Below the pieces are notes generated by a model. The model searched no databases. It had not been told where the DNA came from and worked only from the letters and a program-made list of their open reading frames with translations. From NCBI GenBank assembly GCA_031281345.1, contig JAITFN010000020.1, forward strand, positions 1 to 64,000: a stretch of 64,000 bases of DNA. The letters run 5' to 3'. Below, piece by piece: positions 47,236 through 49,362 of the stretch; the stretch's first letter is position 1; every line of letters starts with the position of its first letter. The translations under genes and the position numbers were made by a program. Source of the stretch: Candidatus Fibrimonadaceae bacterium. Lineage in GTDB: Bacteria; Fibrobacterota; Fibrobacteria; Fibrobacterales; Fibrobacteraceae.

Positions 47236-47681
47236 CAGTCAAACCTCACAAATTCTTCCATAGCCTGCCTTTTCTTTGCACCAATTCCGGGAACTTTCTC
47301 CAAATCTTTTGCTGTGCGAAAATTGCCATTTTTTTCTCTATAATCAATTATCTTTTGCGCAAGAGAAGGGCCAACTCCTTTTATAAAACACAAGTCTTCA
47401 TTGCTTGCGCTATTTATGGGAAGCGGAAATGCCGGAGCTTTCTTTTTTGGTTTCTTTTCCCTTTTGTGTTTTGCAAATTTGGCATCTTCATCGTCACTCG
47501 CTGTTGCTTCATTATCAATGGTATCAACAATAGCAACTGAATCTAAAACAGCCTCTTCGCTCATAGGCAAAAAAACGCTTTCCAAAGGAGAAATTTCGCT
47601 GAAAAATCCTAGTCGTGAAACACCGCCCAAAGCGAAAAGAAAAAGAGCCAAACACAAAAAACTTTTTTCTGCGCTATTCAT
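47235..47681 (-). CDS. ComEA-like helix-hairpin-helix protein
   Basis: A 148-residue exported or membrane-anchored protein: N-terminal hydrophobic segment (about 8-28), an acidic then Lys-rich linker (about 60-85), and a C-terminal double helix-hairpin-helix (SASNEDLCFIKGVGPSLAQKII and DLEKVPGIGAKKRQAMEEF). ComEA proteins bind incoming DNA in the periplasm during natural transformation. The coupling with comM two genes upstream and the pilin elsewhere is consistent with a DNA-uptake role, but ComEC is not in the window. Overlaps pyrG by 8 bp. Confidence 0.8.
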   Translation of the reverse strand: MNSAEKSFLCLALFLFALGGVSRLGFFSEISPLESVFLPMSEEAVLDSVAIVDTIDNEATASDDEDAKFAKHKREKKPKKKAPAFPLPINSASNEDLCFIKGVGPSLAQKIIDYREKNGNFRTAKDLEKVPGIGAKKRQAMEEFVRFD

Positions 47682-49362
47682 TCTCTGTTCTACCGCTGTT
47701 TCTCTTTTCGCCAGCTTTTAGCAAATGGTAAAATAATGGGGCTGGCTTCAATAAATTTGATGTAAGTTCTGGGTGAAATTGGCAACCCACAAAAAAGGGA
47801 TGGTCTGTTATTTCCATAATATGCATTATGCAGTCTTGTTTAGCAGAATGGCCAGAAAATAGCATTCCGTTTTCTTCTATTTTGCTAACGTATCTGGGAT
47901 TAACTTCGTGGCGATGCCTGAATCTCTCTCTTATTATAGAAGCCCCATCGTAAATTTTTTCCACTAAAGAACCTTTTTTCAAAAAAACATCGTGCCCGCC
48001 TTTTCTGAGCATTCCGTCTAAAACTTTAACATATTCTGGACCTGGCAAATATGCAATAACAGGTTCTTTTACCTCTATGCCCTCAGATTCAACTTCCACA
48101 GTGCCGGCAAGTGGTAAGCCGCATTTATGGCGAGCAAATTCCACAACCGCAAGCTGCATTCCATATCCAATTCCAAGAAAAGGAATTTTCATTTCGCGAG
48201 CCGCATGTATAACAGAAATTTTCCCTTCCATTCCACGCCTCCCCAAACCGCTCGGCACTATCACAGCATCAACATCTGCAAGCTGGTTTTTTATGTATTC
48301 CAAATTATTTGTATTTTCAGATTTTTCAAGAAGTTCTGTGTCTATCATTTTCAAATTGCAAGAGAGGTTCAAATGCGTAGCGGCGTGATTTATAGCTTCT
48401 CTAATGCTTGCGTAAGAATCTTCCAGCTTGGTATATTTTCCGCACAGAGCAATTTTCAGAGTTTTCTTAGGTTCTTTGTAATTTTTTTTGCTAACCTCAA
48501 CAAGGCGTTTCCACTCGTTCATTCTAGGCGAATTTGCTCCGGCCAGTTTTAATTTTTTAAATATTATGTCTAAAATTCCCTCTTCTTGAAAGCCAAGCGG
48601 AATTTCATAAACAGATTTCACATCTAATTCTGATATAACATTTTTGCTGGGAATATTTCCGTAAAGCGCAATTTTCTCTTTGATTTTTGGAGTTAGCTGC
48701 TTGCTGCAACGGCCTATTATTATATCTGGGTAAATTCCCTTTTCATTCAAATCACGAACAGACATTTGCGTTGGTTTTGATTTTTGCTCTTGAGTTCCTG
48801 TTGGAATTGGAACATAAGTTAAATGCGCAAAAAGACATTTGTCTGGTCCCACTATGTGCGAAAGCTGGCGTGCCGCTTCTATGTAAAACTCATTTTCCAA
48901 ATCTCCCACCGTGCCGCCAATTTCAACAAGCAATATATCTGCATTTTCTTTGCTAGAAATTCTAAAAAAATGGTCTTTTATAACATCGGTCACGTGTGGA
49001 ATGAATTGAATTGTTGTACCAGCATAAACACCCTGCTTTTCCCTCTCCACCAAGGTAGAGAACACCTTGCCCATAGTTAAGTTCCATTCAGATTTGGCAT
49101 TTATTCCCAAAAAACGCTCATAATGACCAAAGTCCATATCAACTTCGCCACCATCGTCTAAAACAAAAACCTCGCCGTGCTCAATTGGGTTCATAGTGCC
49201 GGGGTCAACATTCAAATAGCCATCGCATTTCACCGGAATCACGCGAAAACGAGAGAGCAATGCACCTATGGATGCTGCTGCCACTCCTTTGCCAAGACCA
49301 GACAAAACCCCACCTGTGATGAAAATAAATTTGCTCTTTCCATTGTAACAGCTATCACTCAT
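47674..49362 (-). CDS. pyrG: CTP synthase with degenerate glutaminase active site
   Basis: Makes CTP from UTP, ATP and a nitrogen donor. The synthetase half is intact (FITGGVLSGLGKG, DPGTMNPIEHGEVFV, DFGHYERFLG, VEIGGTVGDLE). The glutaminase half is not: where the family has GICLGMQ with the nucleophile Cys, this protein reads GIGYGMQ (about residue 390), and PGGFGxRG is PSGLGRRG; only the HPE of the triad remains. It may therefore use free ammonia. ATG 49362 (MSDSCYNGKSKF) fits the family N-terminus; an upstream ATG at 49398 overlaps the comM end and adds 12 residues. Length 562, near normal. Confidence 0.93.
   Translation of the reverse strand: MSDSCYNGKSKFIFITGGVLSGLGKGVAAASIGALLSRFRVIPVKCDGYLNVDPGTMNPIEHGEVFVLDDGGEVDMDFGHYERFLGINAKSEWNLTMGKVFSTLVEREKQGVYAGTTIQFIPHVTDVIKDHFFRISSKENADILLVEIGGTVGDLENEFYIEAARQLSHIVGPDKCLFAHLTYVPIPTGTQEQKSKPTQMSVRDLNEKGIYPDIIIGRCSKQLTPKIKEKIALYGNIPSKNVISELDVKSVYEIPLGFQEEGILDIIFKKLKLAGANSPRMNEWKRLVEVSKKNYKEPKKTLKIALCGKYTKLEDSYASIREAINHAATHLNLSCNLKMIDTELLEKSENTNNLEYIKNQLADVDAVIVPSGLGRRGMEGKISVIHAAREMKIPFLGIGYGMQLAVVEFARHKCGLPLAGTVEVESEGIEVKEPVIAYLPGPEYVKVLDGMLRKGGHDVFLKKGSLVEKIYDGASIIRERFRHRHEVNPRYVSKIEENGMLFSGHSAKQDCIMHIMEITDHPFFVGCQFHPELTSNLLKPAPLFYHLLKAGEKRNSGRTENE

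Follow-up and report, generated by a model that had tools for sequence, protein, structure and literature searches.

The window analysed here, a 64,000-nucleotide stretch from Candidatus Fibrimonadaceae (genome G000), encodes a CTP synthase that lacks the nucleophilic cysteine of its glutaminase domain, which raises the question of whether such an enzyme can still draw on glutamine and, if it cannot, for what role it is retained. The gene, designated pyrG1, occupies positions 47674..49362 on the minus strand, in agreement with the originally predicted reading frame. Its product, 562 amino acids long from the annotated ATG, consists of an N-terminal synthetase (amidoligase) domain with the conserved sites retained (CTP_synth_N, Pfam PF06418, E=2e-103, residues 11-273; 48544..49332, minus strand) and a C-terminal class I glutaminase (GATase) domain that appears dead by sequence (Pfam PF00117, E=8.6e-31, residues 314-549; 47716..48423, minus strand). 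With 646 bits against the TIGR00337 cut-off of 463 it falls within the CTP synthase family, and its predicted structure (mean pLDDT 87.5) superposes on E. coli CTPS with TM scores of 0.88/0.94, solved CTP synthases being matched along the full length. PyrG1 is thus like the canonical enzyme (PyrG/CTPS, EC 6.3.4.2; TIGR00337) in family, fold, domain order and synthetase site, with 40% sequence identity to E. coli CTPS when the structures are matched, but differs from it by the missing catalytic Cys, a changed oxyanion strand and a changed GTP-activation motif. Glutamine hydrolysis is therefore predicted to be absent.

These differences were located by aligning 180 PyrG sequences with the E. coli enzyme, whose residue numbering is used for all PyrG1 changes. 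PyrG1 deviates at nine of the 154 columns that are at least 90% conserved in Cys-containing PyrG. Two deviations, V113I and L441K, are common to intact genus-mates; R104K, N168K, G351S, F353L, C379G, G436D and T438M have no parallel there, and five of these seven fall in the nucleophile, oxyanion/lid L11 or GTP-activation motif (residue roles from PMC9138612). The nucleophile position (C379 in E. coli) carries the Gly codon GGA at 48166..48168 (minus strand), in place of the TGC or TGT of intact genus-mates. Both this codon and the oxyanion/lid L11 strand PSGLGRRG at 48232..48255 (minus strand; G351S, F353L; altered relative to PGGFG) are present as the original prediction described them. Its reading of the active-site stretch as a change from GICLGMQ to GIGYGMQ stands for the Cys-to-Gly replacement and not for the Tyr, which is normal here, the lineage motif being GICYGMQ. 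The original prediction had overlooked the lineage-specific changes G436D and T438M, which turn the GTP-activation motif into DGM (48010..48018, minus strand). PyrG1 consequently has neither the PGGFG strand nor the G436/T438 pair of a glutamine-dependent amidotransferase, and of the class I Cys-His-Glu triad only His and Glu are retained (H515 and E517 in QFHPE; His-Pro-Glu at 47767..47775, minus strand), together with Gln383 and most ligand residues of the GATase domain. The synthetase half, as claimed, is intact: it keeps nearly all conserved columns and deviates only by R104K, V113I and N168K.

The loss is not a sequencing artefact. A second genome of the same genus (G008), which represents a different species, encodes in the same gene order a PyrG 97% identical to PyrG1, with identical GIGYGMQ and PSGLGRRG stretches and every other lineage-specific change, including the GTP-activation motif. 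The surrounding synonymous codons differ between the two genomes, which rules out a base-calling error as the source of GGA. The two pyrG genes are separated by 90 synonymous and 15 nonsynonymous changes, and the resulting dN/dS since the loss is 0.028 for the synthetase and 0.054 for the GATase domain. Purifying selection has thus remained strong on both domains, and neither half is a pseudogene. The suggested decay of glutamine use can accordingly be divided in two: the loss of glutamine use is upheld as a prediction from sequence, selection and E. coli mutants, and the protein itself is not decaying.

The original prediction had further proposed a whole-cell switch to ammonia and had named a second intact pyrG in the genome as one of the findings that would speak against it. 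We looked for such a gene and found it on a 3.2-kb contig of G000 (C34), where the TIGR00337 model matches a second enzyme, PyrG2 (L001:886-2502), which is 42% identical to PyrG1 and has the intact motifs GICLGMQ and PGGFGDRG. The pyrG2 reading frame overlaps carA by a few bases. Contamination as the origin of this contig was ruled out, since its CarA is 81% identical to that of genus-mate G002 and 78% to that of G001, and its end shares 119 identical bases, inside carA, with the start of another contig of the assembly (C54). With PyrG2 intact and its contig belonging to the genome, the organism retains a route from glutamine to CTP, and the switch of the whole cell is not supported. No pyrG was found adjoining carA in G001 and G002; pyrG2 therefore looks inserted and was probably acquired. 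Among its near relatives are another family of the phylum and a termite-gut member of the Defluviitaleaceae, which suggests transfer. It was not detected in G008, a genome 78% complete that is missing carA too. A general loss of class I glutaminases in G000 was likewise ruled out: CarA, TrpG, GuaA, HisH and PyrG2 all keep the Cys.

We propose, with a probability of roughly 0.77, that PyrG1 is a selected CTP synthase that depends on NH3 and whose glutaminase is dead, operating alongside the canonical PyrG2. Its synthetase site would phosphorylate UTP and then aminate it, the NH3 entering directly, free from the cytosol, and attacking the phosphorylated UTP without any hydrolysis of glutamine by this enzyme. 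The GATase domain would persist for its structural contribution to the tetramer, walling the ammonia vestibule and forming its entrance, with no further need of GTP activation. PyrG2 makes PyrG1 dispensable for CTP from glutamine, and PyrG1 could serve another job; we infer that it is active on ammonia only, in a division of labour that leaves canonical glutamine-dependent synthesis to PyrG2. In E. coli CTPS, the G352P variant has no Gln-dependent and nearly full NH4Cl activity, R429A retains NH3-dependent activity, and GTP activates the glutaminase half-reaction only (PMC9138612). An enzyme that lacks the Cys and runs on ammonia should therefore tolerate changes in its GTP site. Among 26 Cys-less representatives, thinned at 65% identity and thus incompletely independent, deviations occupy 31% of the cells in GTP-site columns, compared with 14% in the remaining GATase columns and 8% in those of the synthetase; in intact representatives the figure is 2-4% in the same column classes. 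The preference for the GTP site is significant by column permutation (p=1.5e-4) and by the Wilcoxon test (p=3.8e-5), and GTP-site residues thus appear to decay preferentially, as predicted from glutaminase loss.

Within the phylum, the motif with a non-Cys codon occurs in only three of 168 genomes (G000, G008 and G053), and all other matches have TGY. A genus-mate of G053, G126, has an intact PyrG. The PyrGs of two further genomes are more strongly degraded, with GIRNGML, QFQPE and a deletion in G005, and LAIGEAMY and deletions in G016. No other PyrG was detected in G005, G016 and G053, at 92-97% estimated completeness. A single loss shared by the window and G005 gave a p-AU of 0.096, and the two enzymes may share one loss; a clade of the window, G005 and G016 was rejected (p 3e-55). 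The PyrG of G013 (L045:5466-7106) keeps the Cys and has lost G352, F353, R356, G436, T438 and R470, and by its sequence is perhaps an intermediate in glutaminase loss. No match to CarA, GuaA, TrpG or HisH was found in G005 (92% complete) and G053 (97%), where PF00117 finds PyrG only, a pattern that suggests reduced nucleotide and amino-acid synthesis.

Beyond the window the phenomenon is broader. A scan of 84,980 species genomes with the pattern P[FY][LF]GI-X-[LYFHQ]GMQ, in which the codon of X does not start with T and Ser codons TCN are thereby left out, identified at least 117 Cys-less motif loci in at least 12 named phyla. Similarity identifies every one of the 117 listed loci as a PyrG, the Cys being replaced by Gly, Asp, Ser, Ala or Asn. 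A tree built from the synthetase domain alone implies at least 13 changes of the Cys state, a rough count because sampling of intact members outside the window's phylum is thin and long branches are drawn together in the fast tree. Cys-less PyrGs thus appear from sequence to have arisen repeatedly, in bacteria and archaea. The oxyanion PGGFG is present in 72 of 74 intact enzymes versus 28 of 106 Cys-less ones. Copy number was considered in 42 genomes with a Cys-less PyrG among the matches listed: the sole detected PyrG is Cys-less in Sporosarcina isolates, Methanimicrococcus blatticola and several gut and digester MAGs, and an intact copy accompanies it in Treponema parvum, T. lecithinolyticum, Hydrogenibacillus, Planctomycetaceae and Defluviitaleaceae. 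Five sampled genomes listed in succession within the family around one Sporosarcina genome are without the Cys (codons AGC, TCA, TCA, GCA and GGT), and the remaining matches have TGY. The second PyrG of Treponema (L127:731-2356, L117:2321-3952) is conserved, with Asp at the nucleophile position (GIDLGMQ) and PGNYGQRG; this fixed Asp suggests a maintained role and not free drift. Its gene lies directly upstream of, and overlaps, an lptC-lptA-lptB-like cluster. No ammonia-related partner gene was found in the gene context of the Cys-less pyrG of Treponema and Methanimicrococcus.

Could PyrG1 instead be a redundant paralogue that lost its glutaminase after pyrG2 was gained and is now heading to a pseudogene? 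The presence of an intact second copy, the simultaneous loss of several glutaminase residues and the further deletions in the PyrGs of G005 and G016 would all suit such a course. However, dN/dS has remained at 0.03-0.05 in both domains after the loss, the frame is intact with synthetase site and gene order conserved, and lineages whose sole PyrG is Cys-less cannot be decaying to nothing, which together make this explanation unlikely. We consider it similarly improbable that PyrG1 makes no CTP from ammonia and acts as a regulatory or structural subunit, tuning PyrG2 in mixed tetramers or filaments. The synthetase active-site columns of PyrG1 are kept, Cys-less enzymes present as the sole copy must be catalytic, and the identity between PyrG1 and PyrG2 is only 42%. 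In favour of such a subunit are the persisting constraint on the PyrG1 GATase domain, the joint occurrence of Cys-less and intact copies in the four unrelated groups named above, and the Treponema dead site fixed for Asp and PGNYGQRG. The two-copy state itself fits ammonia use and a regulatory subunit alike, and the retained His, Glu, Gln383 and ligand residues make a non-catalytic glutamine- or GTP-sensing role of the GATase domain possible.

It is highly improbable that PyrG1 still uses glutamine by another route, with a separate glutaminase feeding it ammonia or another residue serving as nucleophile. Such trans subunits are known in other amidotransferase families, and the question has been raised for NAD synthetase (PMC3376133). 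In PyrG1, however, no replacement Cys is seen, the Cys residues near the site also occurring in intact genus-mates, and the oxyanion and GTP-activation residues have been lost along with the nucleophile. A missing glutamine synthetase as the common cause was not supported either: G000 has a match in an ORF of ~700 amino acids, taken as GSIII, and most of the sole-copy Cys-less genomes tested have a match, some being without one.

An ammonia-dependent PyrG1 would suit an ammonia-rich gut habitat, as the original prediction suggested, an idea strengthened by the Sporosarcina, gut and digester carriers. Many Cys-less carriers come from guts, digesters or urea-splitting groups, with habitats read from record titles alone and without a background comparison. 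Ammonia-rich conditions presumably allow or favour a Cys-less PyrG. In Sporosarcina, ammonia is reported to be necessary for growth, and S. pasteurii to show neither glutamine synthetase nor glutamate synthase activity (PMC7775470). The sole Cys-less PyrG of the Sporosarcina examined, S. pasteurii not among them, fits the reported ammonia need and may help explain it, giving this old puzzle a testable part. Evenly balanced between true and false, in our view, is the broader proposal that CTP synthases running on ammonia alone are a widespread class that has evolved repeatedly in bacteria and methanogens. Sole-copy enzymes, as in Sporosarcina, would then tie CTP to environmental ammonia, and in two-copy organisms, the window's genome and Treponema among them, the Cys-less copy would provide a second, glutamine-sparing supply.

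We found no account of naturally Cys-less CTP synthases in the papers searched, among which subscription journals are sparsely represented. Annotation and metabolic models take CTP synthase to be a glutamine enzyme; it has also been discussed as a target for drugs, and its Cys is the site of action of DON and other glutamine analogues. If the proposed reading is true, the Cys-less class is mis-annotated as glutamine-dependent, is expected to be unresponsive to such analogues, and marks organisms that rely on free ammonia for their nucleotides. The Cys-less enzymes are also natural experiments on the purpose of the GATase domain and the GTP site.

Among known systems, the best reading of PyrG1 by analogy is as the CTP-synthase counterpart of human CPS1, which uses free ammonia and has a dead glutaminase domain with Ser294 in place of Cys (PMC4655335). 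In both, a GATase domain has naturally lost its Cys and the dead domain is kept, in PyrG1 under selection, as expected of a CPS1-like pseudo-glutaminase; the use of ammonia by PyrG1 is for now inferred. CPS1 differs in being another enzyme, with a mitochondrial urea-cycle role, NAG control and confinement to one vertebrate lineage, whereas the loss in PyrG recurs in bacteria and archaea. The single-domain, ammonia-dependent NadE presents the same amidotransferase situation, its family members differing in the use of glutamine or ammonia (PMC3376133), but it has no glutaminase domain and its ammonia use is thought to be ancestral, while PyrG1 keeps a dead domain and its loss is derived. Further parallels are the G352P and DON-inactivated forms of E. 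coli CTPS, in which glutamine activity is absent and NH3 activity kept (PMC9138612); these are laboratory-made, whereas the Cys-less PyrGs are natural and selected.
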